Shown: one piece after another, positions 16,227 through 32,978 of the stretch | How the letters are laid out: each line of letters opens with the position of its first letter | Numbering within the stretch: the first letter of the stretch is position 1 | Assembly: GCA_020050835.1 (NCBI GenBank) | Contig: JAGVKB010000125.1 | Span: forward strand, 1 to 32,978 | Direction: 5' to 3' | Length of the DNA: 32,978 nucleotides | Origin: Candidatus Obscuribacterales bacterium | Lineage (GTDB): Bacteria > Cyanobacteriota > Vampirovibrionia > Obscuribacterales > Obscuribacteraceae | Made by a program: the position numbers and the translations under genes | Notes under the pieces: model-generated | What the model was told of the DNA's origin: nothing | What the model saw: only the letters and a program-made list of their open reading frames with translations | The model's database searches: none

Positions 16227-16358
16227 GTAATCTCTTGGCTTTAAGTGTACACGGGTGACTTCCTCATTCTCCCGTCTAAGATTGCATTTCTCAATAGGTA
16301 AGGTGAGATTATTGCCTGTTGACGATTTGATTGGCAGCTGCCGCACCAAGAGAACATA

Positions 16359-17315
16359 TCAGTGCTGTCCATGGCATAGCCAAGCTCGACACCCGAGAAT
16401 CCGCCCAAACATGCTAGCTACAAATCGCCTAATAGCCACAGCACCAGTCGAAGGTAAGAACCTCAACATTTGAAGAAAGCCATAGGATCTTCTGCTTCCA
16501 ACAAGTGCGGCCCAAATCAGAAAGATCACTCGGTTAACTTTCGGACTTTCCATCAGAGCGAGAGTTTCATTGTGCACCGCGTCGATGCAATTCTCCCAGT
16601 CAAATTCTTCGCGCTGGCTGCGTTCCCAGCGTTTGGCTGGGTAGTGGTCGACAGCAATCTGAGGATCATAGACGAGTCTCCAACCCGCTGCACTAAGCTT
16701 CAATCCCAGCGCGAGTTCGTAATGAGGCTGTGCTCCGAATCCTCGTAAACGCGTATCGAATCCAATCTCTTTGACAATTGAGGACCGGTAGGCACAGTTT
16801 ACCCCCTTCAAGAAATCGACATCTCTTGCCGGTCCTGTACCAAGATGATGGTTGCCAATGAATTGACCATGCGTGAGCAATTTGCCTACTCGATCCACCG
16901 AGCCTGATTGCACGATTCCCCCTTGATGGACCCAATCTCTTCCGCCCACTCCAGCTACGTCAGGGTTTTCGACAAAGTGTTGCCAAATCTGCATTAACCA
17001 ATCTGTCCGGGGTGCGGCATCATCATCGGTGATGGCGATGATGTCTTCATTTGCCGCCAATAGTCCAGCGTTCAATGCATGAATAACACCGGGGCTGCTT
17101 ACCACAATGACTTTGAGTGCGAAACCAAACTTGGCTGTCTTGATAAATTCATGAGTTTCAATATCCTTGTCCCTTACGATGACAATGACGCTGTCCGGAG
17201 AGTGTGTCTGATTGTTGACTGCTCGCAGACAGCGCTCAAGTTCGCTCACGCGCCTGTACGTAGGTATCATTACTACCGTGCTATAAGTGTTTGAGTTGTC
17301 CTGCATGGGATTCAT
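16359..17315 (-). CDS. GT2-family glycosyltransferase
   Basis: A GT-A glycosyltransferase of 318 residues. It has VVMIPTYRRVSELERCLRAV, IVVSSPGVIHALNAGLLAA, the DxD motif AITDDDAAPRTDWL and GVGGRDWV. A later DTRLRGFGAQPHYELALGLKLSAAGW block matches the acceptor/catalytic-base region of this group. A hydrophobic segment (RVIFLIWAALVG) lies near the C-terminus. It is the first gene of the three-gene leftward operon; the FkbM gene follows. ATG 17315 or 17306 could be the start, neither with a clear ribosome site. Confidence 0.92.
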   Translation of the reverse strand: MNPMQDNSNTYSTVVMIPTYRRVSELERCLRAVNNQTHSPDSVIVIVRDKDIETHEFIKTAKFGFALKVIVVSSPGVIHALNAGLLAANEDIIAITDDDAAPRTDWLMQIWQHFVENPDVAGVGGRDWVHQGGIVQSGSVDRVGKLLTHGQFIGNHHLGTGPARDVDFLKGVNCAYRSSIVKEIGFDTRLRGFGAQPHYELALGLKLSAAGWRLVYDPQIAVDHYPAKRWERSQREEFDWENCIDAVHNETLALMESPKVNRVIFLIWAALVGSRRSYGFLQMLRFLPSTGAVAIRRFVASMFGRILGCRAWLCHGQH

Positions 17316-17477
17316 CAGTAACTTTCGGTAAACGAGATTTTGTCAACGCGCTCTCAATTGACCAGTCAACATCAACATTCTAGTCCGTGACGTGATTATC
17401 GGAGAATGCAATTACTTCCTTTTGCCTGGAGTAAGTCAAAATTAGGTAGCATTAGTGCCGCGTTCGTAGTGTGCTTG

Positions 17478-18581
17478 CTATGTTGAGATGATTTCTTCAT
17501 CAGACAGAATGAATGTCGTGAAATCGTGAAATTTCTGACACGCAATTTCATCATCGAAGTGCTTGATTGCTATCTCGCGTGCCCGGCTTGCTTTAGCGTT
17601 GATGTCGTCGCGACTGAGTTTGGTAATCCACCTTGCACATTTGTTATGAAAAAGCTCGCTGGTAGGAAGCCCCGGCGGGAGGGCCCAGCCGGCTGGTGCT
17701 GCGAAGTCAAAAAAGCCTGGGACTGGGGTCATCGCAACAGGTACTCCGCAAGCTAAGTATTCGGGAAGCTTTGTAGTTAGGCGGTAGTTACCAAGGTTGT
17801 TTGGGAATTGAGTAACAAAGCCTATGTCCATGGCGTTGATGCTTGCAACCACATCGCCCGCACCCAGCTTGCCAGTAAAGATAACTTTGGACCGTAGGTT
17901 ATCGGGGACGAGGTTTTGGAGAAGCTTAAGACCAGAGCCATCACCGACTATCAGCACTGTAACATCCTGGCGACTGATGAGTTTTAGCGAAGCGATCAGC
18001 TCTAGCCCGTAGCAATATGAACTTTGTTTTCTCCAGTTCAACGAGCCTACTACGCCTAGGACCAGCTGTCCAGGCTTAATACCGAATCGACTGCGGGCAG
18101 ACTCACGATCAATTGCTTCGTATGGATGAAATCGTTCAAGATCAACGCTTGCGATTGTGACCGCTCGCCGCGCGCCTAGTTTGAGAGCCATCCCTGTAAG
18201 GTATGGTGTCCAACCGATAAAGCCAGAGCAGGTTGAATAAAGGAGTCGCTCGTAAAGTCCGCTAATGAACGCTAAAGGCAGGCCGGCCGTCACCTCGAAA
18301 TAGCCGGAAATTGGGTCTCCGGAAGATACTATGTAACGCTGCTTCCAGCCAAAGTGGGAACGTATGACATTGACTCCTCCAGCTAGACCCGTTCCTTCTA
18401 GATACACCAGGTCCCATTTCTGTGAGTTCAGAACTTTCCATACTTCTAAAATAGAGTGATACCGAGATACGGATTTATCTACATTGCAGTAAGTGACATT
18501 TGCACTCATTCCAAAAGTTAGCTTCCGTGCTCTAGTTTCGTCATTTGGAGAAGTAACAATACAGAGAATATTGATGGTCAT
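17478..18581 (-). CDS. GT4-like glycosyltransferase with atypical active-site motif
   Basis: A GT-B-type glycosyltransferase of about 367 residues. The donor domain has LGVVGSLNWRKQSSYCYG, VTVLIVGDGSGLKLLQNL and KVIFTGKLGAGDVVASI. In place of the usual EX7E there is TTKLPEYLACGVPVA, as in GT4 branches with a single conserved Glu after Lys-Leu. The acceptor domain is less conserved, with WDLVYLEGTGLAGGVNVI. ATG 18581 (MTINILCIV) is preferred over TTG 18593. It stands apart from its neighbours (162 bases before the GT2 gene at 17315), with a divergent FkbM gene upstream. Family placement is fairly certain; substrate is unknown. Confidence 0.85.
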   Translation of the reverse strand: MTINILCIVTSPNDETRARKLTFGMSANVTYCNVDKSVSRYHSILEVWKVLNSQKWDLVYLEGTGLAGGVNVIRSHFGWKQRYIVSSGDPISGYFEVTAGLPLAFISGLYERLLYSTCSGFIGWTPYLTGMALKLGARRAVTIASVDLERFHPYEAIDRESARSRFGIKPGQLVLGVVGSLNWRKQSSYCYGLELIASLKLISRQDVTVLIVGDGSGLKLLQNLVPDNLRSKVIFTGKLGAGDVVASINAMDIGFVTQFPNNLGNYRLTTKLPEYLACGVPVAMTPVPGFFDFAAPAGWALPPGLPTSELFHNKCARWITKLSRDDINAKASRAREIAIKHFDDEIACQKFHDFTTFILSDEEIIST

Positions 18582-18747
18582 TGCTAATTTCAATTACGTC
18601 CATACTAGCTGTGCATGATACCGGGCATGGTATGCGGCTGCCGTTCCTTACAGGCTCTAAGCCCAAAGAGATTCATTGATAAACTGCATAAATCTGTGTG
18701 AGTAATTGCAGTGTCTTCCGCGAAGAAATTCAGCATGCTTAAGTTGA

Positions 18748-18776
18748 TATACTAAAGTATACGCTGCCTCTAGAGG
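18748..18776. promoter_or_regulatory. Paired palindromes upstream of FkbM gene
   Basis: Two perfect inverted repeats lie close together: TATACT-AA-AGTATA (18748-18761) and CCTCTAGAGG (18767-18776). They stand 38-66 bases before the ATG at 18814, where an operator or promoter would be expected. No known factor site is recognised. Confidence 0.3.
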
Positions 18777-18813
18777 TTCACTTTAGTTGACCGATAACCA
18801 GTCATCAACATAA

Positions 18814-19605
18814 ATGAGACGAGTCAAATTGCGTACAGAGGATTACATAGCCTTCCGCTCCCTTATGGTTCCATTAGGCTCCCATATTCCAGACATTGTC
18901 CGCAGGGAACTGGAAGGTGGAACATACGAAGGTGCGGAACTAGATGCGCTTGATCTAGGCTTGACCAATGATGACATTGTAATGGAGTTGGGGACGGGAT
19001 TGGGTGTTTTGTCTGCCGTCTGTGCACAGCGTATAGGTTCTGACCGAGTGTACACTTTCGAAGCAGATCCGGAGCTGAAGCCACATATAGAACGCCTTTA
19101 TCGCGCGAATCAGGTCAGCCCAGAACTCAACATGTGCATGTTAAGTAATCATAGTGACCCTGTCTCGTTTTATCGAGTCAACGATTTTAGATACTCTTCA
19201 TCGCTTCCGATACCGGAGGCTACGGTTGTAACCGTGCCAATACGCTTGTTTGAGGATGAATTGAGTCGTATTTCTCCCACAATGTTGATCATCGATATTG
19301 AGGGTGGTGAATACGATTTACTAGTCGGCGCTAACTCAAAACTCGACAGTGTTGAGAGGGTGTTAATCGAAGTTCATGCGGAGAGATTAGGTTCGGAGAA
19401 GTATATTCAGTTGTTGGATTATTTTCGACAGTCTGGGTTTCGGATTACGAAGAGTAGGCTTGATGCACTAAGACGTCTTTTCTACGAGTTAGCGGAATAC
19501 TTTGGCGTAGCTGGGGTTGTTAATATGCGACAGGGGTTAGCAAAACTAGGTTTCATAGAGAATCCACTACCTCTTCTTCAAGAGGTTCTCCTCTTTTGCA
19601 GGTAG
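18814..19605 (+). CDS. FkbM-family SAM methyltransferase
   Basis: The second FkbM-type methyltransferase (263 residues). Motif I is IVMELGTGLGVLSAVCAQ, followed by VYTFEADPEL. The FkbM hallmark appears as MLIIDIEGGEYDLL, with RVLIEVHAERLG after it. It is not closely similar to the FkbM protein at 15507-16226, so the two probably modify different positions. It is a single rightward gene between leftward genes. The 220-base region upstream holds two palindromes (18748-18761 and 18767-18776) that might be regulatory. The ATG has no Shine-Dalgarno. Confidence 0.88.
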   Translation: MRRVKLRTEDYIAFRSLMVPLGSHIPDIVRRELEGGTYEGAELDALDLGLTNDDIVMELGTGLGVLSAVCAQRIGSDRVYTFEADPELKPHIERLYRANQVSPELNMCMLSNHSDPVSFYRVNDFRYSSSLPIPEATVVTVPIRLFEDELSRISPTMLIIDIEGGEYDLLVGANSKLDSVERVLIEVHAERLGSEKYIQLLDYFRQSGFRITKSRLDALRRLFYELAEYFGVAGVVNMRQGLAKLGFIENPLPLLQEVLLFCR

Positions 19606-19685
19606 ACTAAAGCTCTTGATTGAACTTGATGTTCGAGGATTTGAGTTGGATGTGATTGTCTTCTGATTTGTGAAAAATAGTTGTC

Positions 19686-20504
19686 TCACTTTTTTTGAAC
19701 TGCTACGTAAGTTCCAGTCACAAATGGCCAGGTTAGCGGTGGGCGTCCGTGCTTCCCGTTGCGAAGGATTCGACAATTGTTGAATCGAAAGAACTTAACT
19801 AGGTCGATGGGGTTGCACATATAGCAGGAATCATTATCACCATGAAAAGGGGGGGTAGAATCAGGGACTCGCATCACGAACTTTGGAATAGGGCACAAGG
19901 ACTTTTGAAGTAGATGGTAAGAGGCCATTGCCATGCTTGCAACTATCTCTGGAAAGGTATTGCCAAAGGGATGCTGGGGCATCTCTGCTGAGCGCACAAG
20001 AATAGTACGCATGGGGCGATTGCGCCACACATGTACGAACAGCATTCTCAGATGTCCAAGCAGCCCTAATAAGTTTGGTCCGACCACAACTATCATTCCG
20101 TTTGGCCTTACCATACGCAGCATCTCTCGCAAGGCTTGCTCAGGCTTAGGAATGTGTTCCAATAGTTGGTAGCATGCCACGATGTCGAAAGACTCGCTCT
20201 GAAAAGGAAGTGACATAATGTTGGCTTTCTGTAGCTTCATGTTTGGCATTGGTGCAACTTCGAAAGCTTCTGGGTTCAAATCGGCGCCGACAACACTGTA
20301 TCCGGCGTTTGCAAGCACCCAAGCGGACCAACCAGTTCCACAGCCAATATCAAGAATCCTAGCGGGCGGTAGTTGTTCTTTTTTGATAAATTCAAGGTAA
20401 TCGCTGTAACACTCCAAGGCTTTCTGTTCGGTTAAGTCCATTCTTCGGACCTTCTCGCTAGAAGTCTCGTACAGGTGTTGCATATACTCAAGATCGCCGT
20501 TCAA
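19686..20504 (-). CDS. Class I SAM-dependent methyltransferase, TTG start
   Basis: A Methyltransf_11-type enzyme of 272 residues. It has ARILDIGCGTGWSAWVLANAGY (SAM motif I), VVGADLNPEAF (acidic loop), FDIVACYQLLEHIPKPEQAL (motif II) and MVRPNGMIVVVGPN (motif III). The start is TTG at 20504, supported by AAGGAG at 20518-20513, 8 bases upstream. It may methylate a sugar or a lipid-linked intermediate, but small-molecule substrates cannot be excluded. It converges with the FkbM gene ending at 19605 and lies 246 bases downstream of the wzy-like gene on the same strand; the gap holds nothing recognised. Confidence 0.9.
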   Translation of the reverse strand: MNGDLEYMQHLYETSSEKVRRMDLTEQKALECYSDYLEFIKKEQLPPARILDIGCGTGWSAWVLANAGYSVVGADLNPEAFEVAPMPNMKLQKANIMSLPFQSESFDIVACYQLLEHIPKPEQALREMLRMVRPNGMIVVVGPNLLGLLGHLRMLFVHVWRNRPMRTILVRSAEMPQHPFGNTFPEIVASMAMASYHLLQKSLCPIPKFVMRVPDSTPPFHGDNDSCYMCNPIDLVKFFRFNNCRILRNGKHGRPPLTWPFVTGTYVAVQKK

Positions 20505-20750
20505 TGGTTAGGCTCCTTCGCGGTCCTACCCGGCTTGCTTGCACAATAAGAGTTCGAGTGCCGGAATATAAGAAACACACGTGTTGTTGGCTTCGTATTG
20601 ATTCCTGAAGTGGCTCAGGTGGTTGTGCAAACTGGTCATCTAACAAGATATACCCTTAACAGCCGGTCTAAATCCTGTTTGTTCCGGCAAACGGGTGTTC
20701 TAGGCAAGAAGGCTTGGGCTTGAATTCTATTTGAACTACCTTAGAGTTGC

Positions 20751-22148
20751 TCATATGCTTCGGCTCGTCTTGTTGGGGGGCAAGTTGTTTGCTGCGATGT
20801 TCAAGCCCGTAAAGAACCAGCCAAGGGTGCAAATTGTGCCATTGATGGTCATCTGAGCGTATCCCAGCAGTATACCTGTATAGCTAATCAGGAGTATTGG
20901 AAGCGGACTCTGCGTTCGCTTCGTTGCGGATATTGCTTTCTCTGACAGCCAGAATATAAGCCAGAACTTGTATGCAAGGTAGACCAGTCCGAATAACCCG
21001 GCTTCATCGACAAGGCATGCCCACTCGTCCTCGCTTAGCTCCCAAGTTAGAATTCTGCGGTAACGAGCAGCACCGCCGCTCCCCAGTCCAATTCCATGTC
21101 CCAGCAATGTAGTATTTTGCACCGAGGCTGCCAGAGCTGTGAATCCTCTTGTTACCCTGGTTCCGAGAGAGTTGTATGGACTCTGTTCGCCTGCTACAAA
21201 TCTATACTTTATGGCCTCGAATGATTCCGGGGCCGTAAGAAAGAATGTAAATCCGGCACACGATATTAGGCTGATAACGATCAGAGTTCTCTGCAGAGTT
21301 TGCTTTTCTGGAAGGAAGAATGAACTTACAATTGCGCCCAAAACACTCGAAGCGGCAAGTAAGTATGCGAGGCGGTGACCGTTATAGAAAAGCAGCAAGA
21401 CTGTCGCACCAGTGAAAATTATTTTGAAGACCGGATGAGCAAGTGTTTTAGGTTTCTTGTAGAGCCATAAAAGTAGACACATTGGCCATAAGCTTCCTAG
21501 ATAGTGGGCTTCTTGTCCTGCGTTGCTAAACGTTGCTGCTGGCCGAGTGATATCTTTTGTCATGGCTTCTGGTTTCAAGTTTTCATCATATGTACGGTTG
21601 ATCCATGCATCCTTCGGCGAGTGAAATTGAATGTACACTAGTGGCAGCAACAGGACCGAAATTACTAACGCATGCTTCATCACGCGCGCTATATCAGGGC
21701 CTTTCAGGTTGTGCCCCATTAGAAAGGCAAATGGAACGTAGAAAAAGTACATTCTCCATCCGTAAGCTCCTATGACTGGATCGAAATGTTGTAGCACTAC
21801 CTGCAGAAAGATAAGCGGGATAAAGAGAATACTGAGCGTAACTCCTGCTAAGAAAGGGCCAGAGAGCTTTGGCCACAATCGGTGACGAAATGCCAGATAG
21901 TACGCGTAAATGACTAATGTGTCCTTCGCGAAGTAGATGAAAATCTGGGCGTCAGGCAAAAACCACTTTCTAATCGCGCCGTCAAAGACTATTGCCCAGT
22001 AGAAAAGAATGCATACGAGTACAAACCGGTTATGAATGGACCGTTGCACAGGAGATCCTGTCCTATTTACGACTGTAAGTCCGCTAGTAATTTCAAGGCT
22101 CTCCCGTAGCTTGTATAAAACGCAGAGCTGGCTTGTTCCAGATGGCAA
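20751..22148 (-). CDS. Wzy-like O-antigen/polysaccharide polymerase
   Basis: An integral membrane protein of 465 residues with about ten to twelve hydrophobic helices. The C-terminal half carries the pattern of O-antigen polymerases/ligases: a periplasmic loop with RFVAGEQSPYNSLGTRVTRG, then LLGHGIGLGSGGAARYRR and the acidic WELSEDEWACLVDEAGLFGLVYLAYKFW. These proteins join undecaprenyl-linked repeat units in the periplasm. Because the locus also has Wzc-like and Wza-like genes, polymerase is likelier than WaaL-type ligase. The TTG at 22148 gives the longest frame. A GTG at 22049 with AGGA upstream would start just before the first membrane helix and may be the real start. It is divergent from the GT4 gene at 22303. 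Confidence 0.87.
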   Translation of the reverse strand: MPSGTSQLCVLYKLRESLEITSGLTVVNRTGSPVQRSIHNRFVLVCILFYWAIVFDGAIRKWFLPDAQIFIYFAKDTLVIYAYYLAFRHRLWPKLSGPFLAGVTLSILFIPLIFLQVVLQHFDPVIGAYGWRMYFFYVPFAFLMGHNLKGPDIARVMKHALVISVLLLPLVYIQFHSPKDAWINRTYDENLKPEAMTKDITRPAATFSNAGQEAHYLGSLWPMCLLLWLYKKPKTLAHPVFKIIFTGATVLLLFYNGHRLAYLLAASSVLGAIVSSFFLPEKQTLQRTLIVISLISCAGFTFFLTAPESFEAIKYRFVAGEQSPYNSLGTRVTRGFTALAASVQNTTLLGHGIGLGSGGAARYRRILTWELSEDEWACLVDEAGLFGLVYLAYKFWLIFWLSEKAISATKRTQSPLPILLISYTGILLGYAQMTINGTICTLGWFFTGLNIAANNLPPNKTSRSI

Positions 22149-22302
22149 TCACTTCGATTTGAAGTCGCAGACGCGAAGGTATTGTTCCCCACATGCACTG
22201 CTAATCCACGCGTCTGAGGCTCTGGTGTAGAATGAGAAATGACGCAGCGGAATATACAAATCGCGAATTTTAGCTGCAAAACAGACTAATCGCTATTGCT
22301 GC

Positions 22303-23352
22303 ATGATAGTCCACCCCTTGAAAATTGCTATCGTCTCCGTCACGTTACCGGAACCTGGACGCAAGTTCGGGGGAGTTGACGTGGTTGTTCATCGACTTGC
22401 CAATGAGTTGGCAAAGGTCGATCATGTCACGGTCTTCACTGTATCCCCCTCAATTCCAGATTCTCTTTATGAGCACAGCACACTTTTTCGGGGGATGAGT
22501 TGGCTGGCCAATAAGAAATCTAGGCTGACGATTACGCCCATATTGCTGAACTTTCTAAGATTCGATCAATTTGATGTGTTGAGTCTTCACGGCGATGATT
22601 GGTTCTACTTTTTTCGAACCTGTCCAACTGTCCGCACTTTTCATGGCTCAGCACTCATGGAGTCGCGCACAGCAACGTCTATACAGCGAAAGCTTGGATC
22701 ACTGTTTGTCTATCAGTTGGAACGCCTTGCCGTACGCCTTTCCACTAAGGTTGTGTGTGTGGGAAGCGGAACTGCAAAGCTCTTCGGAGCTGAATCGATT
22801 GTAGATAATGGAGTAGACACAGGAGTGTTCTTCCCCGGAAAGAAGGTAAGGCACCCACGTATAATGTTTGTTGGAACATGGCAAGGTAGGAAAAGAGGTA
22901 GATTTGTGTATGAGTCGTTTCTGAAGGACATCCTTCCACAGTTACCGGATGCGGAGCTTTGTATGGTTTGCGACTACTGCCCGCCGCATCCGAACGTGAT
23001 TATTGAGATGTTTCCTTCTGACGAAAAGCTAGCTCAACTTTATCGTGAAGCTTGGGTCTTTGCCTATCCGAGTCTGTATGAAGGCTTTGGACTAGCGTAT
23101 TCTGAAGCTCTAGCAAGCGGAACTGCGATCGTTTGCTCTCCAAATGAAGGTGCCGCAAGAGTGTTATGTAACGGTCGATTTGGCATGATTGTCCAAGATG
23201 CTTCATTCAGCTCCGCGGTCTTAGAGCTTTTGCAAAATTCGAAGACTAGAACAATGTTAGAGGCGTCTGGGATTGTACGAGCTTCCGAATTGTCCTGGTC
23301 TTCGGCTGCTGAACAATATAGGCTGGCCTTCAGGTCGGTGTTGGATGAATGA
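22303..23352 (+). CDS. GT4-family glycosyltransferase
   Basis: A GT-B glycosyltransferase of 349 residues. The N-terminus is KIAIVSVTLPEPGRKFGGVDVVVHRLANEL. A short donor domain has RIMFVGTWQGRKRGRFVYESF, AYPSLYEGFGLAYSEALASG (EX7E: E-GFGLAYS-E) and AIVCSPNEGAARVL. It lies 50 bases before a methyltransferase gene in a rightward group of three. ATG 22303 has no clear ribosome site. Confidence 0.92.
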   Translation: MIVHPLKIAIVSVTLPEPGRKFGGVDVVVHRLANELAKVDHVTVFTVSPSIPDSLYEHSTLFRGMSWLANKKSRLTITPILLNFLRFDQFDVLSLHGDDWFYFFRTCPTVRTFHGSALMESRTATSIQRKLGSLFVYQLERLAVRLSTKVVCVGSGTAKLFGAESIVDNGVDTGVFFPGKKVRHPRIMFVGTWQGRKRGRFVYESFLKDILPQLPDAELCMVCDYCPPHPNVIIEMFPSDEKLAQLYREAWVFAYPSLYEGFGLAYSEALASGTAIVCSPNEGAARVLCNGRFGMIVQDASFSSAVLELLQNSKTRTMLEASGIVRASELSWSSAAEQYRLAFRSVLDE

Positions 23353-23402
23353 AAGAAGTTAGGGCTCGTGTATAGTTTCAGAGAAATTGAGATACACCAA
23401 AA

Positions 23403-24077
23403 TTGGCATCGAACAAGCGTCCAAGCGATCCGCGTATTGAAAAGAGCTTTTGTAAGCGTCTTCTGACTGTGTTGTTTAGCGGTCGAACATTCTATCTTTT
23501 GAGCCATCCACTTGAGGCCTTCTCTATTTGTGCCGATCGTTGGTGGGAATCGCGGCATAAAGATTGCCCGCTGCTTGTCCCAACAGTGATTGAATTTCTG
23601 GGACATACTATACAACCAGATTGGACCGGTTTTGAGTGGGGGAGTGGCGGTAGTACTGTGTGGTTCGCCGAGCGTACTAAACATGTAACAAGTGTGGAAG
23701 ATAATTCAGATTGGCACCGCTATGTAAATAGTAGATTGGCCGAGAAATGTTTGAATAATGTAGATCTGCGTTTGACGCGGATTGATCCAGCGCTATCAGA
23801 CGAATGTACTTCGTCAGATCAGCGCGCACGATCGGTCTATGTGCGGCAAATATCGGATTTCCGTGATGAGTTTTTTGACTATGTGTTAGTTGATGGACAT
23901 TTCCGAGAGGAGTGTATTAGGGCAGCTATTGGAAAACTAAAAGTTGGAGGACTATTGATACTTGATGACAGCTTGTGGCTTCCCACTTTGGATGGGTGGG
24001 GCGTTCCGGAAGACTGGGAGATAGTCTGTCATGCAGGAAGCCTCACAAAGCAGACCACAGTATGGCAACGGCGATGA
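23403..24077 (+). CDS. Class I SAM methyltransferase-like protein, TTG start
   Basis: A 224-residue protein with a SAM-methyltransferase core: GFEWGSGGSTVWFAERTKHVTSVEDNSDW (motif I and the following acidic residue), FDYVLVDGHFREECI (motif II) and KVGGLLILDDSLW (motif III). This resembles the Methyltransf_24 group. No ATG occurs near the N-terminus; TTG 23403 with GAGA upstream is the best start. It lies between a GT4 gene and a MycE-like methyltransferase gene, so sugar modification is a reasonable inference, but activity is unproven. Confidence 0.8.
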   Translation: MASNKRPSDPRIEKSFCKRLLTVLFSGRTFYLLSHPLEAFSICADRWWESRHKDCPLLVPTVIEFLGHTIQPDWTGFEWGSGGSTVWFAERTKHVTSVEDNSDWHRYVNSRLAEKCLNNVDLRLTRIDPALSDECTSSDQRARSVYVRQISDFRDEFFDYVLVDGHFREECIRAAIGKLKVGGLLILDDSLWLPTLDGWGVPEDWEIVCHAGSLTKQTTVWQRR

Positions 24078-24223
24078 GAGTTGTTAGGTTGTTTTTGAAT
24101 TGTGATGTTTGGCATTTTTTGTCGGACATGGCTTTTACAGGAATCGGACACTCCACTGTTCACTTCCAGAAACATAGGAGGATCACCACGCATCAAATGC
24201 GATAATGAGGCAAACTAAATCAA

Positions 24224-25039
24224 ATGATTGAAATCTTCGCGTCCTTATCTAAGAAGCAGATCTTGTCCAGCATTCGTTGCGTGCTCGGATCATTCAGCAG
24301 CGCCCGCGGTTTTTGGGCTGCCCGAGCCTTGAACTCAGCCTGTTACTTAGAGGCACAGAAGTCCAATGTCCAAGCTGAGTCCGTAGCCGCTAATGTACTT
24401 GAGCAGTATTTTGATGAAGTCACTGAGGGACCAGGTATTTGGAAGTGGCGACACTATTTCGAAATCTACCATCGCCACCTACACAAGTTTATTGGGCAAG
24501 ACGTTCACCTGCTCGAAGTCGGTATCTACAGTGGTGGAAGCCTTCAAATGTGGCAGCACTACTTGGGTCCAGAGTGCCAAATCTATGGCGTAGATATCGA
24601 GGAAGCATGTCGCGCGTATGAGAGTGAGGCGGTAAATATCTTTATTGGAGATCAGGCTGATCGCCAATTTTGGAGCCACTTTAAGAAGAATGTTCCATCC
24701 TTGGATATCATAATTGATGATGGTGGGCACGCACCTAGGCAGCAGATAGTTACTTTAGAAGAACTAATTTCACACTTGCGTCCTGGTGGAGTATATATCT
24801 GCGAAGATGTGCATGGTTCATTTAATCAGTTTGCGCAATACATCAACGGATTTTGCCAGAATTTGAATCAATTTGGTGTTAAACCTGGACAAGAGCTGGC
24901 TTGCAGCCCAACTCAATTTCAGTCGCAAATTCATTCGGTCCACATGTATCCGTACGTAGTAGTAATTGAGAAGACGAGCCGCCCAGTGACGGAATTTATC
25001 GCCCCAAAGCATGGAACTCAATGGCAGCCATTTCTTTAA
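24224..25039 (+). CDS. MycE-like metal-dependent sugar O-methyltransferase
   Basis: A 271-residue class I methyltransferase. It has HLLEVGIYSGGSLQMWQHYLG (SAM motif I), IYGVDIEEAC, and IIIDDGGHAPRQQ with D165, D166 and H169, which matches the metal-binding region of the MycE/OleY macrolide-sugar methyltransferase group. GGVYICEDVHGSF follows. In that family a divalent metal orients the vicinal hydroxyls of a deoxysugar for O-methylation. The context fits methylation of a sugar in the polysaccharide or of its lipid-linked precursor. It lies 146 bases after the previous methyltransferase gene and is the last gene of the polysaccharide block. Confidence 0.85.
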   Translation: MIEIFASLSKKQILSSIRCVLGSFSSARGFWAARALNSACYLEAQKSNVQAESVAANVLEQYFDEVTEGPGIWKWRHYFEIYHRHLHKFIGQDVHLLEVGIYSGGSLQMWQHYLGPECQIYGVDIEEACRAYESEAVNIFIGDQADRQFWSHFKKNVPSLDIIIDDGGHAPRQQIVTLEELISHLRPGGVYICEDVHGSFNQFAQYINGFCQNLNQFGVKPGQELACSPTQFQSQIHSVHMYPYVVVIEKTSRPVTEFIAPKHGTQWQPFL

Positions 25040-25187: not shown

Positions 25188-25238
25188 AAATAGCTGGGTA
25201 AATTGCAGAGGGGAGTTTGCCGTCACGGAGGTCGAGGG

Positions 25239-26654
25239 TTGGTGAGGTCATTTAGCCTGACACTATCTCTTGCGGTATCTGTTTTTCTAGTGGTTGCTAG
25301 CCAGCCTTGTGTTAATGCAGAACAAGAGTCAAACAACGCAGTTGTTGTAGCAGAAGAAGGTCTGAAAAACGTTGTAGTTTCCGGTTCCGCACGGTCCTTT
25401 GAGCTCAATGGTAAAACGTACCTGCGCGGTCGCGTCCAGAAGCAAAATGGTGACACTTCGAGCTTTGGCTCCAGAAGACAAAGTGCAGGAGGCGACGAGA
25501 CCTCCAATAGCAATTCAGGCAGCTTCTTAGCCGATCCTATCGATAGCAGCATACCCATTTTTGTCACTATGCATGAATCAATCTTTCTGCCTGAAGCGGC
25601 GGAATCCTCGTGGATTGCACTAGACAAGCTTTTTGAGAATACCGTAGTTGCCGCGCCCGAAACTCCCAGGACTGGAAGGCACAAGTCCGCCAAAGAAGGC
25701 GCTATTTATAAGAGCAAGAGCATGTTGAATTACATGCTGGGTTACCGTGCCTTCGGCCCTTCGGCTGAGGCGGCGGATCTCATTTTAGATGAGCATTCAA
25801 AATTGAAGAGCGCTGATGCTAAGAAGTACTACCTTCAGCAAGAAGTTGATCAAGGACACTTGATGACGGTGTCTAACATCTTGCAACTTGGGATGGGGCT
25901 TGGAACATCAGACAGCATCGACGTTAGAAGAATGACGAATGCAAGTCTCACAGCCTTGCGTGCTCTTGTTGGCGACAGCGAGACGGACGAGATTTTGAAA
26001 ACTCTGAAATCGCTTCGAGAAGCAGAGCGTTTGTCTGGAGCAGTTCAATCGCACGGACTATGGACACTAGGCGATCGAGCCGGGAAGGTGGACAGAATTG
26101 TTCAATCAGCTCTCGCCTGCGATCCTGTGATAACTGACCTGAAGAAGACTGTCCACCGCTATAATCGTCATGGAAAAGTGTTGCTTCGAAGCATGGGTGC
26201 TCTACAAGCTGCACTACATGTGGCTGCTTTCACGCCGACTTTCGCGGCTCCGGCTGCAGAGACGGCAAGCTTCCTTCTCGTTATGTCAACGGGTGGACCT
26301 GAGCAGGATAAGCTGCTTCGCGAAATGTACCTGTCGAAGCGCTTAGAGAGTCGCACGCGGATGATAACTGATAAGGCGCGCATGGCTGTAGACGCCTACA
26401 ACGCGGCCTTGATGGCGGACAATTCTGTATTGCTTGCTAGTGCTCAAGCGCTAGTTAGGCAGATGGCCGGTGAAGAAATGGTGAGAGAGGTATTTGGATC
26501 TTCTGAACTTGCGAATTATGTTGGAATTGACCGGACAGCAGTGAAGTCCAGTTTGCCAAACAAGCCTGGCAATGCAGTCGCCCAACTAGACAATTTGAGT
26601 CGAGACCATTCAGCTTCAAGTCAAGTTGTCCCGAAGCGTAATCCAGCCTTGTAG
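25239..26654 (+). CDS. Exported helical protein of unknown function
   Basis: I do not recognise the family. After the signal sequence (SFSLTLSLAVSVFLVVASQPCVNAEQE; cleavage probably after VNA) comes a short beta-like segment (VVVSGSARSFELNGKTYLRGRV), a Ser/Gly-rich linker, then about 350 residues that look mostly alpha-helical and Ala/Leu-rich, with a hydrophobic stretch (about 345-365). It has few Cys. Starts considered were TTG 25203, TTG 25239 and GTG 25242. GGAGG at 25227-25231 favours 25239. It begins a run of exported proteins directly after the polysaccharide genes, which hints at a surface or matrix role, but nothing in the sequence shows an activity. Confidence 0.8.
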   Translation: MVRSFSLTLSLAVSVFLVVASQPCVNAEQESNNAVVVAEEGLKNVVVSGSARSFELNGKTYLRGRVQKQNGDTSSFGSRRQSAGGDETSNSNSGSFLADPIDSSIPIFVTMHESIFLPEAAESSWIALDKLFENTVVAAPETPRTGRHKSAKEGAIYKSKSMLNYMLGYRAFGPSAEAADLILDEHSKLKSADAKKYYLQQEVDQGHLMTVSNILQLGMGLGTSDSIDVRRMTNASLTALRALVGDSETDEILKTLKSLREAERLSGAVQSHGLWTLGDRAGKVDRIVQSALACDPVITDLKKTVHRYNRHGKVLLRSMGALQAALHVAAFTPTFAAPAAETASFLLVMSTGGPEQDKLLREMYLSKRLESRTRMITDKARMAVDAYNAALMADNSVLLASAQALVRQMAGEEMVREVFGSSELANYVGIDRTAVKSSLPNKPGNAVAQLDNLSRDHSASSQVVPKRNPAL

Positions 26655-26828
26655 ATGGACCGACATTTGACCTCCTATGGCCGGTAATTGCTTGGTTAGT
26701 ACAAAAAAATAATGATTCGAGTACTGGCTGATGAGGAAATTGTTTAGGCATCAATCTGTAGTGGAACACAGAATCTTAGAGATTCCAGTGGCAGTCGAAC
26801 CACAGGAGAAAGTAAACCTCACAACTCA

Positions 26829-27518
26829 ATGCTTAGCATCAAAATTTCAGTTCGGTGTGACAAAGCTGCCTGGCTCCAGGTAGGATTACTGACCTCATTC
26901 AATGTCGGTCTGGTCGCATTATTGTTTGCATTCTTGCCGCAAGCGGATGCTCAGCAAAATGTTCAGTCCTCTATACAGTCGCTAGCGCCGACCGTTTTGC
27001 GTGGTGCATCTAGAGCTGCTCAGCTGTTCCGGAAGCGGACAACTTCTCCGCAGCAGCAACAGGCACCTTCGCAAAATTCAGGCAAAAGTACTGTCCTGGT
27101 ACCGCCGCCGGAGCCTGCTAAATCGGTAATGCCTGCCGGAAATGCTTTTCTATCACAGGATAGAAAGCTGTCACTTCCTACCGTCCAGCCGATCCGCGTG
27201 CAGGCCTGGGTGGTGATGCTTTCATTCAAGATGAGGTCTACGCCGGAAGCAACTGGAAGTGGTGGCGCTTCTGACATGGAAATCTATGATGCATGCATTG
27301 AAGATGTGAATGGCGCCGTAGTTGAAAGGCTAAACATTTCGCGAACAAGGGATAGCTTCAAGCTCTCTGCTCCGTCAGGCAGTTTCAACGCTGAATTGGT
27401 TCCTGACCCGGATAGTCGGACTGGAATTATAAGTGTTGCCGGTGCAAGTCATTCCTATACGCTACAGAAAGCTAGTGACGGTGATTCATGCATGCTTCAG
27501 ATGACTAGAATGCGATAA
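26829..27518 (+). CDS. Small exported protein of unknown function
   Basis: A 229-residue protein with a long N-terminal signal region (hydrophobic 16-38, ending PQADAQQ, likely signal peptidase cleavage after ADA). A Gln/Pro/Ser-rich linker (about 70-110) precedes a C-terminal ~100-residue domain with alternating hydrophobic pattern (VQAWVVMLSFKM, MEIYDACIEDVNG, GIISVAGASHSYTLQ), probably beta-rich. The family is not recognised. It lies 174 bases after the previous exported-protein gene, with no convincing ribosome site. Confidence 0.72.
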   Translation: MLSIKISVRCDKAAWLQVGLLTSFNVGLVALLFAFLPQADAQQNVQSSIQSLAPTVLRGASRAAQLFRKRTTSPQQQQAPSQNSGKSTVLVPPPEPAKSVMPAGNAFLSQDRKLSLPTVQPIRVQAWVVMLSFKMRSTPEATGSGGASDMEIYDACIEDVNGAVVERLNISRTRDSFKLSAPSGSFNAELVPDPDSRTGIISVAGASHSYTLQKASDGDSCMLQMTRMR

Positions 27519-27567
27519 TTTACGGACAGAAGCAATTTGAAGTAATAGTCACTAAACTGGGAACAAA

Positions 27568-28008
27568 ATGAAAGAATTCGTTTTGCAATGGGGAAATCGA
27601 ATGGCGGTTGGGGCAAGACTATTTCTTCTCTTGTGGGGACTTGGTACTCTAATTCTCAATTCTCCAGCTGCTGCCGACGAAAACCCAGGGCAAGGAGAGA
27701 AGAAGCCGGCCCGCATTCGCTTTGTAGTTTGTCCAGACCCGGATAAACCAGGTGAGTGCAAGCTAAAGTTTAACAATGCACCTAAAGACGCTGGTGACGT
27801 GGAGAACTTTACCTGGGGACCGGATGGGCCACTTGAAGGGCACTTTTCCTTCAAGTATGGAGGCAAGCAACTAAACTGCACTTACAAGGTCAAGGGTTGT
27901 AAGATGCCCTGTGAGTTTGAATACATACGCTGTGGTGATCCTGAAATCGAAAAGCGATTCAAGACTAACGCAAACAGCAGCCAACCTCCGGAGCAGGAGT
28001 TTAGATAA
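27568..28008 (+). CDS. Small exported Cys-rich protein, paralogue of 28046-28471
   Basis: A 146-residue protein with a signal sequence (hydrophobic 17-31, cleavage near SPAAA-DE) and a compact domain with six cysteines after it. The pattern RIRFVVCPDPDKPGECKL ... GHFSFKYGGKQLNCTYKVKGC ... PCEF ... RCGDPE aligns with the protein encoded convergently at 28046-28471. All six cysteines are conserved between the two and probably form disulfides in the periplasm or outside. The family is not recognised. The stop lies 37 bases from the stop of its paralogue. Confidence 0.78.
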   Translation: MKEFVLQWGNRMAVGARLFLLLWGLGTLILNSPAAADENPGQGEKKPARIRFVVCPDPDKPGECKLKFNNAPKDAGDVENFTWGPDGPLEGHFSFKYGGKQLNCTYKVKGCKMPCEFEYIRCGDPEIEKRFKTNANSSQPPEQEFR

Positions 28009-28045
28009 CAACCTCCTCTGAAAATTCAGGACAGGATAGATTAGG

Positions 28046-28471
28046 TCACTCTTTCGGCATTAAATCGGCTGGCCAATTTTGAGGCGGATCCTTATCCCAG
28101 TCACCAAGTCGAAGATCAAATAAATTGGCGTCAGCTCCGCAGTCAACACTTATGGTGCAGCTTGGTTTCTGGCAAATCGCTTTGTATTTGCAACTGCATT
28201 TCTTGCCATCGATCCAGAAGGTAATGGTTCCCTGGTTTGGATGGTCATCCGGAGTAATAGTCACGTCTTTCGATGTGGCGATGGCACAAATTCTGCACTT
28301 GCCGTTGCTTGACTCATCCGGCGGGCACAGTTTGAATCTAACTCTTCCTCCATTTGCCTTGTTCGATCCTGCGTTCTCTTCGACCGGTTGCGCATAGCTA
28401 CAAGGACTCATAGCCGTCACCGCGAGTATGCAAGCAATTATCGGTATCTCGACTTTTAGTCCCATTTGCAT
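28046..28471 (-). CDS. Small exported Cys-rich protein, paralogue of 27568-28008
   Basis: A 141-residue protein with a signal sequence (to about SPCSYA-QP) and a domain with eight cysteines. It aligns with its convergent neighbour: RVRFKLCPPDESSNGKCRIC against RIRFVVCPDPDKPGECKL, and GTITFWIDGKKCSCKYKAIC..SCTISVDCG against GHFSFKYGGKQLNCTYKVKGC..PCEFEYIRCG. The two extra cysteines could make a fourth disulfide. The inverted arrangement suggests duplication with inversion. Function is unknown; the cysteines in an exported protein suggest a disulfide-stabilised surface or periplasmic domain. Confidence 0.78.
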   Translation of the reverse strand: MQMGLKVEIPIIACILAVTAMSPCSYAQPVEENAGSNKANGGRVRFKLCPPDESSNGKCRICAIATSKDVTITPDDHPNQGTITFWIDGKKCSCKYKAICQKPSCTISVDCGADANLFDLRLGDWDKDPPQNWPADLMPKE

Positions 28472-29318
28472 GGATCTAATTCCTCGGTACGAAACAGTTG
28501 CTTGCCTCTACCTCTATTCCCAACAATCTTCCGAAAGTGTCGTTGGTTTGTCGTAGAAGAATGTGTTTTCAAGTTGGGCTGAATAAAATCGTTCAGCCGA
28601 GTTAGAAACGGGAGCGCGCGAAGCGCAACTACATGTGGTGAACGCCAAAGTACTGCTCTTGGAAGCAGTAAGAATACTCATGCTAAAAGCATGCAAAGCT
28701 TTGACAGCAAACTTAAGCTCGTGCGTGCAGTTTATCAGGCGTTCGGCAGTTTCTAAATGTGCGTGATAATACTCCTTTTGAAAGCACAGTAGTAGTCCAA
28801 TATTCTTTCTTACCAAGATTCAGCATCTTTATAACAATTAGATCTGATCTTTGTTTATAGATATATTCACAAAAAAACAGGGTAAGAAGCTGAAGACTTC
28901 TCGGCTTGGTCGCTTTTGGGCGGAATACCAATCGCAACTTAGTCGTCACTGTATATGGTGCCTAGTCTTAGAGAGAATCCTTGAGTAATTTGGCGCTCGA
29001 TTTGGATTGGAGTTGGCAGTATGGTGGCATGCAAGCGGCTTGGTTTAATTACACATCGTTGCTGTTATGAGGCGAAGAGCGATGGACGGACCGCTGTTTG
29101 TCTAAAAATTCTTGATTCGCTCTTCCTGAGCACTCGATTGCTGACAAGTTTGCAATTGCGGGCTGGAAAAACGATGCAACAGCGCTGGCAATTGATTTTG
29201 AGCACATGTGCGTACGAATGTTCCTCACGATTTCGGGCCGAGCGGACTCGCTGCAAGTTTGTAGCGCTGTAACGCCGGCTTCACTCGCGAACGAGGAAGG
29301 AAATTCAAGAGAGCAATC
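28472..29318. other. Long intergenic region with small inverted repeats
   Basis: There are 847 bases between divergent genes, with no frame that looks like a protein. They contain two close perfect hairpins (TACTGCT 28651-28657 with AGCAGTA 28664-28670; CATGCT 28679-28684 with AGCATG 28688-28693) and an AT-rich stretch around 28830-28880. The promoter of the large gene at 29319 must be here. No tRNA or known riboswitch is recognised. Confidence 0.5.
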
Positions 29319-32300
29319 ATGCACAATTTGGCGGACCTGGGCAATAAGAAGAGACTGAGAAGGATCGGACGAGGGCGCGGACCGCCAGCAGCAGGCGGCT
29401 GGGCTTCGCATGTCTTCGGATTTATGCGACGCCCGGTAGCAGGCGGAAAGTCGAGCGTGCCGGGGCAGTGGAGCCGGCGCGCTGTTTGTGCTGTGTTGGC
29501 CTTAATGCAGATCTGGGCAGCATGTGGCTGGACCCTCTCCGTTAGCGCAGAGGAGTTGAAGCGGCAAAAAGCACAGCCGGCCGAAGGGCAGGCGGTTGTG
29601 CGTAGCACCAGCCTAGCCGCAGAAGAGTTCGGTCCGGGTCTGGAGGTTCTACGTAACGGTTCGGGTACCGGTGTAAGCGCAAATTCGCTTCTTGAGACAG
29701 CAAGCGAGAAGCAGGCATTCGAAGGTTCTCACCAGTCTGTAGAAAGGTACCGGCTCTTGGCGCAGGCCTTTCAGAAGTCGCCGGACCGTGTGATTTCCAT
29801 ACGTGGGGCTGATGGCTCTGGGGCTAAATCCGATGAGACCGGTTCATCGAATAGTCGCCAGACCAAACTGCCTCGAATTCAATTGCCTCCAGAGCCAGCG
29901 GTTCCAGCTCTACCATTCTCTTCGAGAGTTGTCCTCAGCCCTCAGTTAGCTGTTGTAGCACCTGATTACCGCTTGAATCCGTCGAACCGGACTGAAGGAA
30001 TTACCGACGGTGTTGATGCATCGCTCAACTTACCACTGCTGACGATGGTGCCAATATCTGATCGACCAGAACTGCCAAAGGAGCAAGTGAGCTCGCACAT
30101 TTCGATAGCTCTACCGGTTTCTCAACTTCCGCAGAACTCGGACTTGACCGATTCTACAAGTTCTACGGGCGCAGCCGATTCTATAAGACTGAATCTCTCC
30201 TCCCAAGCTTTGAGTGCTCCGCCTCTGGCTGAGTGTTGTACTCCTGGCTTGAACGGCCAGCTGTCTAATGGTCTTAACGATCGTCTGGAGCTGTCTCCGA
30301 AACCTGAAGCTGAGTTGCCTTTGCTGGCGGAGGCTCCGTTCGAGCGTTCTGTTGAGAGCTCTGTGGTCTCCCAGGCGGAGTCCTTTGTGGCGGAATCGCA
30401 ACCCGATGTTCCACCGAAAGAGACTTTTGATCGGGTTGTACAGTTGGCGGCAAAAGGACCGCCGGCAAAGACTGCCGTACCATCCTTGTTACGACAAGGA
30501 TCCGTGCCGAGTGCTCCAACGCAAGTAATTGGGCGCAGGGGGTGGCGTTCCGGTCCAATTGAAAATTATCCCTTCCGTTCGGCGCTTGGTCCTTACAAAT
30601 TCGCCTTTCCGCGAGACCATGGTGCACATGCTGATTATCAGACCGAGTGGTGGTATGTCACCGGGCACCTCAAGAGCAATGAGGGAAAGACCTTTGGTTT
30701 TGAAGTCACATTCTTTCGGCAGGGCGTAAATCCGGCATTCTCTTCGACGAAGCCGCCTCTAGACCTTCACATGGTCCACTTTGCCGTAACGGATGAACAC
30801 AAGAAACGATTCGAGTTTCGTCAAAGATTCAATGTTGAGGGTAGCGAAGGCTGCGACGCCAGCGACAAAAACTTTCATGTTACTCACGGCGATTGGTTCG
30901 GCGAGTTCAAGGATGGACAGTTCCATATTAAGACTGGGGGACAGACGCTTGGTGTTGATCTGGTTTTGACGCCGCTGAAACCGCCGGCACTACACGGTCA
31001 AAATGGCGTGTATCAAAAGCAGGATTGTGTTGGCTGTGCAACGCACTATTACTCGTTTACGCGCTTGTTCACGGAAGGGAGGCTGAATGTCGGTGGCAAA
31101 TCGATGCCTGTAACCGGCGTTAGTTGGTTCGACCACGAATGGGGTACCAGGCAAGGATGGAAAGATGGTTGGTTGGGTTGGGACTGGAATTGCCTCCAGT
31201 TTCCCAATAACACAGAGGTGATGCTCTATCACATTCGAAGGTTTGATGGTAAGCCTGATCCCATGTCTTCAGGCACATTCGTAAATGCTGACGGCACTAC
31301 CGAGCATCTGAAGCTTGAGGACTACAAAATGCAACCGCTTGCATTTTGGACTAGTCCAGTAACGAGCGCAACTTATCCAGCCAAGTGGCATGTGTCTGTT
31401 CCCAAGAAAGGCATAAACGTGCTGGTAACGCCTACGGTCGCCAATCAGGAGTTGTTTACTACTGGCATAACCTACTGGGAGGGAAGCTGTAATGTAACTC
31501 CGTTCGGTAAGGAGCGTGCTGGTGGCGATCGGAACAATCAGTCTGGCATTCTTCCTGGGCGGTCTCCAGTGCGGCTCGGAAGTGAGACCGGTTTTTCGTC
31601 GTACCTGCCAGTTCTGTCTTCAGTTCTGAGGCACCAGGGTATCGGACTTGAGCTGTTAGGAGCCTATCTGGTTGAACCGCTTCCCGATTCGCAGATGTTT
31701 TCTCTTGCGGATATACGCCAGCAGAGTGCTGGTGCCCCTGTAGAAGATGAGCAAGTTGATAACAGTAGCGGAAGTGGTGAGCGAGTTGATGATGACCGTA
31801 AAGATGACCGGGTGCTTATCGCACAAGCAGCCGCGGTAGCGAATGCCCAAACGCAAGCACAGAACGCCTCCAATCAAGGTTATGCGGCTGCCGGTCAAGC
31901 TAATGCCGCCGCAACTCAGGCTGGCGCAGCAGCTAGTGAGGCCGCGGCCGCCGCCGCAAGAGGTGATTACGGCGCCGCCAAGGCGGCAGCTGCTCGTGCG
32001 GCAGAGGCGGCCAATCGTGCAAAGGAAGCGGAGAAAGCGGCATATGCCGCTGCCGCTCAGGTGCAGGCGGCGGTTGCACAGATGCTTGCAGCGCTTCAAG
32101 AAGAAAGAGCCGCTCGGACTAAGGAACTCAACGAGGCTTTGACAAAGAAGGCCGAAAAGGCAAGACAGGATGCAAATAACGCCCAGGCTGCTGCGGAGAG
32201 AGCATTTAAGGCCGCAAATCCCAATATGGAAAAGGTAAGTGGACCGGAGAAGGGGGCAATTCAAGTCGGCGAAGAACAAAAGTGGGAGGTCAAGTATGAA

Positions 32301-32978
32301 GAAATCTGGGACACCACTTATTCCTATTTTGAAATGGCAGGATACGCCCCAGGGCGGTTCATATTCGAGATGACTGGGAAGGTTCCGCCATCCTGGTATA
32401 AACCGAAGGAGCAGTGCTGCAAGTATTGGATAGATATACCGCCGGAAACTGAGCATTGCTGTAAGTATTGGATAGACATTCCACCGGAAACTGAGCATTG
32501 CTGTAAGTTTTGGATAGACATTCCACCGGAATCGGAGCATTGTTGCAAGTACTGGATAGACATACCGCCGCCGAAGGACGACTGGGCGCTGTGTTGTGCT
32601 TACTGGATTGAGGTTACTCCCAAGAAGAAGGAGTGTTGTGACTATCGGATTGAACTGCCATTGTGCTGCACAATTACAACTCAACTTCCGATGTGTTGTG
32701 AGTACAGGCTAGAACTGCCCGAATCGCCTTTAGGCTGCTGCGAGTTTCCAATCGAGCTGCCGAAGACTGAGGAAGGTTGCTGTTTTGTCATTCCGTTCCA
32801 ACGTCAGTGCTGCGGATACACGCTGACGATACCGGCAGCGGAGCAGCCGTGCTGCGGGTACACGCTGACGATACCGGCAGCGGAGCAACCGTGCTGCGGA
32901 TACACGCTGACGATACCGGCAGCGGAGCAGCCGTGCTGCGGATACACGCTGACGATACCGGCAGCGGAACAGCCGTGC
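29319..32978 (+). CDS. Giant exported protein: CrtC/AttH-like lipocalin domain + Ala-rich coil + Cys-Cys repeats (3' end outside window)
   Basis: An open frame of 1220 codons without a stop, running off the window. Seen in order: a basic N-terminus and signal helix (about 50-80: RRAVCAVLALMQIWAACGW, cleavage near VSA-EE); a Pro/Ser-rich stretch (about 85-420); a lipocalin-like domain of the CrtC/AttH type (about 428-725) with FPRDHGAHADYQTEWWYVTGHL (T442-E443-W444-W445), FGFEVTFFRQ, LDLHMVHFAV, SWFDHEWGTRQ (D605-H606-E607), GWDWNCLQF and YWEGS (719-723); an Ala-rich coiled-coil segment (about 832-965); then Cys-Cys repeats from residue 1033 to the end. ATG 29319 is preceded by AGAGAG. CrtC-family members include carotenoid 1,2-hydratases and predicted secreted hydrolases; no carotenoid gene is near. 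Function is unknown; the surface role is inferred. Confidence 0.88.
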   Translation, partial: MHNLADLGNKKRLRRIGRGRGPPAAGGWASHVFGFMRRPVAGGKSSVPGQWSRRAVCAVLALMQIWAACGWTLSVSAEELKRQKAQPAEGQAVVRSTSLAAEEFGPGLEVLRNGSGTGVSANSLLETASEKQAFEGSHQSVERYRLLAQAFQKSPDRVISIRGADGSGAKSDETGSSNSRQTKLPRIQLPPEPAVPALPFSSRVVLSPQLAVVAPDYRLNPSNRTEGITDGVDASLNLPLLTMVPISDRPELPKEQVSSHISIALPVSQLPQNSDLTDSTSSTGAADSIRLNLSSQALSAPPLAECCTPGLNGQLSNGLNDRLELSPKPEAELPLLAEAPFERSVESSVVSQAESFVAESQPDVPPKETFDRVVQLAAKGPPAKTAVPSLLRQGSVPSAPTQVIGRRGWRSGPIENYPFRSALGPYKFAFPRDHGAHADYQTEWWYVTGHLKSNEGKTFGFEVTFFRQGVNPAFSSTKPPLDLHMVHFAVTDEHKKRFEFRQRFNVEGSEGCDASDKNFHVTHGDWFGEFKDGQFHIKTGGQTLGVDLVLTPLKPPALHGQNGVYQKQDCVGCATHYYSFTRLFTEGRLNVGGKSMPVTGVSWFDHEWGTRQGWKDGWLGWDWNCLQFPNNTEVMLYHIRRFDGKPDPMSSGTFVNADGTTEHLKLEDYKMQPLAFWTSPVTSATYPAKWHVSVPKKGINVLVTPTVANQELFTTGITYWEGSCNVTPFGKERAGGDRNNQSGILPGRSPVRLGSETGFSSYLPVLSSVLRHQGIGLELLGAYLVEPLPDSQMFSLADIRQQSAGAPVEDEQVDNSSGSGERVDDDRKDDRVLIAQAAAVANAQTQAQNASNQGYAAAGQANAAATQAGAAASEAAAAAARGDYGAAKAAAARAAEAANRAKEAEKAAYAAAAQVQAAVAQMLAALQEERAARTKELNEALTKKAEKARQDANNAQAAAERAFKAANPNMEKVSGPEKGAIQVGEEQKWEVKYEEIWDTTYSYFEMAGYAPGRFIFEMTGKVPPSWYKPKEQCCKYWIDIPPETEHCCKYWIDIPPETEHCCKFWIDIPPESEHCCKYWIDIPPPKDDWALCCAYWIEVTPKKKECCDYRIELPLCCTITTQLPMCCEYRLELPESPLGCCEFPIELPKTEEGCCFVIPFQRQCCGYTLTIPAAEQPCCGYTLTIPAAEQPCCGYTLTIPAAEQPCCGYTLTIPAAEQPC
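32415..32978 (+). repeat. Cys-Cys protein repeat array (at least 14 units)
   Basis: Within the gene at 29319, codon pairs for Cys-Cys recur at 32415, 32457, 32499, 32541, 32592, 32634, 32664, 32694, 32736, 32778, 32808, 32850, 32892 and 32934, with another Cys codon at 32976 cut by the window end. Spacing is 14 residues in most units, 10 in three and 17 in one. Two main types are CCKYWIDIPPETEH and CCGYTLTIPAAEQP; between them are degenerate units (CCAYWIEV, CCDYRIELP, CCEYRLELP, CCEFPIELP). The general form is CC-x-[YF]-x-[IL]-x-[IL]-P, a short beta-strand pattern followed by a Pro-containing turn. Confidence 0.92.
32808..32975 (+). repeat. Four tandem 42-bp DNA repeats
   Basis: Four head-to-tail copies start at 32808, 32850, 32892 and 32934, each coding for CCGYTLTIPAAEQP. 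Copies 1 and 3 are identical; copy 2 differs at two silent sites and copy 4 at one. The array continues past the window end. Near identity at silent positions indicates recent expansion or gene conversion. Confidence 0.95.

Follow-up and report, generated by a model that had tools for sequence, protein, structure and literature searches.

A gene block of predicted exported proteins beside a polysaccharide locus of an Obscuribacterales bacterium, including an AttH-type lipocalin with a galaxin-like di-cysteine tail

The window analysed here is the whole of contig C37, a stretch of 32,978 base pairs (bp), from the genome of a Candidatus Obscuribacterales bacterium (G000; 7.01 Mb in 154 contigs). 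According to Pfam the contig holds a Wza/Wzc-type polysaccharide cluster, and five consecutive protein genes lay just downstream of it, at positions 25203–32978. The first three, all on the plus strand, were FAM1 (25203–26654, 483 amino acids, aa), W229 (26829–27518, 229 aa) and W146 (27568–28008, 146 aa). The fourth, W141 (28046–28471, 141 aa), was on the minus strand and convergent with W146. The last gene, CrtC+ (29319–32978, plus strand), encoded at least 1220 aa without a stop codon, being cut off by the contig end, which falls inside a 42-bp tandem repeat. The block does not correspond to a single operon, since W141 is antisense and a gap of 847 bp precedes the CrtC+ gene. Between positions 24900 and 29600 a promoter scan stayed at chance level and seven terminator-like sites were counted, against 4.6 (standard deviation 2.0) in shuffled sequences. 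The fold of a possible small RNA at 28017–28050 was not special.

The initial annotation had described five successive exported proteins following the polysaccharide genes, with one recognisable domain (CrtC/AttH-like), and this description agrees with what was found. A crude rule for export signals was passed by four of the five proteins. W141 failed the charge test of the rule, and its N-terminus appeared signal-like by eye (MQMGLKVEIPIIACILAVTAMSPCSYA followed by QPV). The rule is a heuristic which also passed 229 of the 799 genes in the fetched, non-random loci and one glycosyltransferase of the window, so that no formal probability is claimed for the export signals. Pfam at E ≤ 0.1 gave no match for FAM1, W229, W146 and W141, and NCBIfam none for any of the five. 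The only confident Pfam family in the block was the CrtC/AttH lipocalin pair of CrtC+. The 42-bp tandem repeats of the CrtC+ gene were absent from the earlier description.

CrtC+ showed a succession of a signal, a low-complexity region, an AttH-type double lipocalin, an alanine-rich stretch and a di-cysteine tail. The double lipocalin (30546–31523, plus strand, approximately residues 410–735) was recognised by Pfam, by comparison with the PDB entry 2ich, by alignment and in a tree. The alanine-rich stretch (31821–32275, plus strand, approximately residues 835–985) is probably helical, judging by its composition. The tail (32415–32978, plus strand, from residue 1033 to the contig end) included two 42-bp tandem arrays and encoded 14 Cys-Cys pairs at intervals of 14, 14, 14, 17, 14, 10, 10, 14, 14, 10, 14, 14 and 14 residues: nine of the 13 intervals were of 14, twelve were of 10 or 14, and one was of 17. 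All 28 cysteines of the pairs were kept while their codons varied between TGC and TGT. In the two near-identical runs of the tail, changes at codon positions 1/2/3 numbered 2/2/10 and 0/0/9. The proportion of synonymous differences (pS) exceeded that of nonsynonymous ones (pN) in 15 of the 16 listed comparisons of units, the remaining comparison being between identical units. The third-position bias, the excess of pS over pN and the cysteines kept with both codons indicate that the protein sequence of the plus frame has been selected. The di-cysteine array is under purifying selection.

Similar arrays were searched for in several collections. Among 60 related genomes the matches were weak and mostly short or interrupted by stops. 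No array was confirmed in a scan of a genome collection that may lack the host genome itself and its closest neighbours, and none was seen in phages. Within 2.06 Mb of fetched loci, apart from the window and its copies, a single 103-aa frame (L056) had such a spacing. A 17-base word of the tail repeat was confined to contig C37, and a six-frame search of the host genome with the Pfam model Galaxin_repeat (PF24748) gave no match at E ≤ 0.001. A match on a Bacillus pumilus plasmid (L207:228–767) was rejected, as it lay in the antisense frame of a tandem repeat within a longer open frame. This case is a warning that cysteine arrays can arise by chance in shadow frames.

The neighbourhood of CrtC proteins was compared at the family level, in a sample of 50 genomes which contains no second genome of the host genus. 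CrtC was found at 42 places, of which 29 were examined, leaving 28 distinct loci once L107, a near-duplicate of L104, was dropped. At three loci other than the window, belonging to two genera, CrtC adjoined Wzc (G000:C115, G000:C111 and G034:C56). Counted the other way, with the window included and within the stretch read, CrtC was present at 4 of the 17 Wzc loci of the family. At C115 a single 1478-aa protein combined CrtC, proline-rich repeats and conserved C-terminal modules. At C111 a CrtC protein of 446 aa was followed by a 1477-aa protein with modules of the C115 type (35% identity over 424 residues), and the 770-aa CrtC protein of G034:C56 was 45% identical to that of C115 over 364 residues. 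The large CrtC proteins differed in their repeats: the C115 protein (L198:5453–9889) has proline- and tryptophan-rich tandem repeats of the WPTKPTRPMT type at the place of the alanine-rich and di-cysteine regions of CrtC+. Searches with the C115 C-terminal modules found no contig clearly carrying the missing end of CrtC+. Relatives of these modules were present in 29 of 60 genomes, one examined case having TPR and caspase domains. The latter is a secreted protein at L142:6597–10575 (Peptidase_C14 by Pfam on L142). It is encoded near a protein of about 300 aa with the other C115-type module, and similar loci (L143, L145, L146) were seen in several genomes of the family.

The lipocalin unit of CrtC+ matched both domains that characterise the AttH/CrtC family, CrtC (PF07143, E 2.9e-47) and Lipocalin_9 (PF17186, E 4.6e-34), and residues 428–734 aligned with 2ich (NE1406) across the two of them (E 2.1e-41). 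His576 and Asp605 of CrtC+ are 29 residues apart, the same spacing as in the carotenoid hydratase CrtC. In the Rubrivivax enzyme the corresponding His239 and Asp268 are two of the four residues whose alanine mutants were inactive, according to the study (PMC4717167). It may be that CrtC+ is mainly an enzyme or a carrier. Its AttH-type unit would then bind or hydrate a long isoprenoid, for example the undecaprenyl lipid on which the polysaccharide is carried, and the repeats would act only as a tether. The conservation of the two residues, each kept in 27 of the 28 rows of the CrtC alignment, is in favour of this view, as is the role in lipid or isoprenoid metabolism suggested in the AttH structure paper (PMC2954199). 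However, the two other catalytic positions differ, Trp241 being replaced by Tyr578 and Tyr266 by Trp603. Deviations also affect the first two, with Glu for Asp in C111, Gln for His in G034:C56 and Tyr for His in 2ich itself. In the CrtC tree, the Wzc-linked rows and the window formed long branches (1.2, 2.4 and 2.9, compared to a median end branch of 0.27), which suggests a changed constraint. The tree did not resolve their positions, and G034:C56 was left out of it. We consider a primarily enzymatic or carrier function quite improbable. CrtC+ was not assigned as a carotenoid 1,2-hydratase, which has His239, Trp241, Tyr266 and Asp268, in view of its tyrosine and tryptophan at the two aromatic positions. 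The ABC (ATP-binding cassette) ATPase and FtsX permease neighbours of AttH operons have no counterpart beside it in the window.

FAM1 is, as far as can be read from its predicted protein, an undescribed family of secreted helical proteins at the level of the Obscuribacterales. Among the genomes searched, 33 of 36 from the family and all 3 from the order contained a relative, compared with none of 21 from the class. A search of named genomes returned 29 loci, of which 25 had titles with Melainabacteria, Obscuribacterales, Obscuribacter or Cyanobacteria. The conserved core, approximately residues 158–437, shows the motifs YRxFGPSxEAxDxIL and TGGPEQxKLLxExYLxKRxESR (alignments A1 and A2). AlphaFold modelled it as helical, with a pLDDT (predicted local distance difference test) of about 90. 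A fold search of the PDB yielded no match at E ≤ 0.001, the best being helical proteins with TM-scores (template modelling scores) of about 0.2 or less. FAM1 was present at one of the 17 Wzc loci of the family, that of the window itself. At 20 FAM1 loci outside the window the recurring neighbours were a large membrane protein, a UPF0158 protein and a lipoprotein-like protein of about 320 aa, with at least one of them at 11 loci and all three at seven. In L119:8570–14173 and ten further loci, FAM1 was found with such genes, the membrane protein being of 828 aa.

The three small proteins had a much narrower distribution, with no convincing relatives in the 50 family genomes beyond their own genome. 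The one relative of W229, 490 aa long, was encoded on C50, another contig of the host genome (C50:27029–27274, E 6.8e-11). W146 and W141 are paralogues (E 5.4e-6; 28–29 bits with phmmer), with six and eight cysteines, respectively, in their mature parts. W141 occurred in one of 60 genomes, its own, and a profile of W146 and W141 retrieved from the 50 family genomes only the pair itself and a weak match in G023 (E 0.0083). On C50 a 139-aa protein resembling W146 was encoded beside the W229 relative, at 18–20 bits in a four-sequence comparison and absent from the genome-level search. Response regulators and pilin-like genes, named by eye, were located nearby. Another gene beside the W229 relative (this one at L205:2385–12389) encodes a protein of 3334 aa, which begins with a signal-like sequence, has no Pfam match and shows a C-terminal HEVGH motif resembling HExxH. 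The W229/W146-type set may thus be present a second time in the genome, at a distance from polysaccharide genes, though the resemblance is weak for W146.

We propose that the block encodes lineage-specific surface or matrix proteins beside the polysaccharide locus, and that its main product, CrtC+, would be a lipid-binding, disulfide-stiffened rod. In our judgement the chances for and against this proposal are about evenly balanced. CrtC+ would be exported by means of the N-terminal signal seen in its sequence, and the AttH-type unit, given its fold, would bind a lipid or an isoprenoid. The alanine-rich helix would space this unit from the C-terminal rod. The latter is pictured, from the spacing of the pairs, as short strand units held together by disulfide bonds from each Cys-Cys pair to the next, following the models of animal galaxins. 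Such a rod would suit a protein of a matrix or sheath and would make the polysaccharide coat stiffer or cross-link it. W146 and W141 could join the same disulfide network, and FAM1 and W229 would be secreted companions with no general link to polysaccharide loci.

Several observations weigh against this proposal. The 3' end of the CrtC+ gene is missing, and the AlphaFold single-sequence model of the tail was poor (pLDDT 45), with about one strand per unit. Whereas the isolated tail, with 31.4 bits on PF24748, passed the cut-off of 28, which counts for the proposal, the whole of CrtC+ scored 25.1 bits, below it. One of three shuffles of the tail preserving the cysteines still matched (22.7 bits), and none of three shuffles with moved pairs and neither of two full shuffles did. 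This suggests that the score mostly reflects the spacing of the pairs. Since a cysteine-preserving shuffle still matched, homology to galaxins by descent is not claimed, and the predicted tail is galaxin-like in its architecture, with no claim to a role in biomineralisation. At the level of the loci, the CrtC gene of the window is 21 kilobases from Wzc and not adjacent to it, and 20 of the 29 CrtC loci adjoined ABC and FtsX genes rather than Wzc (19 of the 28 distinct ones, plus L107). Apart from the three Wzc-linked loci and the window, the remaining distinct loci had FtsX only, at a contig start (one), lay at contig edges (two) or had neither (two, G000:C53 and G028:C36). Polysaccharide or CrtC genes were found at none of the 20 other FAM1 loci, and the second occurrence of W229, and weakly of W146, on C50 is distant from polysaccharide genes. 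As FAM1 is mostly located away from polysaccharide genes, its position in the window is an exception.

It is possible that the block merely assembles five unrelated, lineage-specific secreted proteins at a variable cluster edge, with functions in the envelope or periplasm that do not involve the polysaccharide. The recurring partners of FAM1 and the recurrence of W229-like and W146-like genes near response regulators and pilin-like genes speak for such a reading. The adjacency of CrtC and Wzc at three further loci, from two genera, speaks against it, however, as do the export signals of all five proteins, by rule or by eye, and the richness in cysteine that W146 and W141 share with CrtC+. We regard unrelated proteins as a real possibility, though a doubtful one. 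The block might also be an adhesive or contact-type cassette, in which a large variable secreted protein and small accessories are placed at different loci. The W229/W146-type set beside the 3334-aa protein of C50 and the varying repeats of the large CrtC proteins would fit this view, but no adhesin, toxin or secretion-system domain was detected by Pfam in the block proteins or in the large secreted proteins compared, and the link between W146 and C50 is the low-scoring one described above. A cassette of this kind appears very improbable. Returning to the proposed matrix proteins, the block is a patchwork and not a conserved unit. The suggestion in the initial annotation that the five proteins build an extracellular matrix or sheath with the polysaccharide gains support for CrtC+, from the recurring adjacency of CrtC and Wzc and from the di-cysteine rod, and loses it for the other four genes. 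The refuting outcome named in that annotation, a neighbourhood not conserved in relatives, was observed at the family level for FAM1, W229, W146 and W141, and the CrtC–Wzc link alone recurred.

A broader and more tentative picture, which we think rather unlikely to hold as a whole, is that some Obscuribacterales coats consist of polysaccharide reinforced by a secreted AttH lipid-binding unit carrying an interchangeable rod. In the present genome the rod would be a galaxin-type disulfide ladder, an independently evolved bacterial counterpart of the matrix proteins of coral skeletons, to which galaxins belong. If this were true, an uncultured sister group of the Cyanobacteria would pair a disulfide-laddered protein rod with an exopolysaccharide. 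Galaxin-type matrix proteins would then have a parallel among bacteria, and the coats of Obscuribacterales could be approached by a testable hypothesis. The AttH/CrtC lipocalin, usually a protein of ABC operons, would have become part of polysaccharide loci and been joined there to repeat rods of different kinds. A literature search, limited to the titles and abstract starts of the top matches and mostly outside subscription journals, recognised no description of a bacterial galaxin-like array or of a CrtC–Wzc association.

The polysaccharide cluster resembles other Wza/Wzc-type clusters. By Pfam it includes a Bac_transf sugar transferase (3170–3898, minus strand), a Wza-like exporter (4226–5578, plus strand), a Wzc-like co-polymerase/kinase (5699–7783, plus strand), an ABC exporter (11360–13159) and, within 7918–25039, glycosyltransferases with FkbM and other methyltransferases. 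A gene without Pfam match at 20751–22148 (minus strand) is a probable polymerase, so labelled from its position. The difference lies in secreted CrtC-repeat proteins as a component, at 4 of the 17 Wzc loci of the family. At the other end of the window, a 388-aa protein (586–1752, minus strand) has a signal-like N-terminus and, at G000:C142, G030 and G013, relatives located between Wza and Wzc. As a conserved polysaccharide partner it is a better candidate than most of the five-gene block.

Most examined members of the AttH/CrtC family are single proteins of 347–447 aa in an ABC and FtsX operon, and the genome context described for NE1406 in PMC2954199 comprises LolD/ABC transporters. CrtC+ differs by its length of at least 1220 aa, its long N- and C-terminal extensions and its location inside a polysaccharide cluster. 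Disulfide-rich coats, such as the Leptothrix sheath and the YTV cell-wall proteins of Planctomycetes, are likened to it by the idea of a cysteine-cross-linked outer layer alone and not by sequence. A parallel in architecture is with the galaxins and calcarins (PF24748; PANTHER PTHR34490). These are secreted proteins with 10–23 di-cysteines usually 10–15 residues apart, for which AlphaFold predicts hairpins joined through disulfides from one pair to the next. PTHR34490 has been reported in archaea as well as in animals and other eukaryotes, and common descent among galaxin-type di-cysteine proteins is called unclear (PMC12419799, eLife 2025). The control search with PF24748 also matched Bacteroides ihuae. 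CrtC+ likewise appears secreted, by the heuristic signal, and carries at least 14 regular di-cysteines, spaced by 10–17 residues and mostly within the range of 10–15. It is distinguished from them as a bacterial, multi-domain protein with units of the form CCxYxIxIPP.

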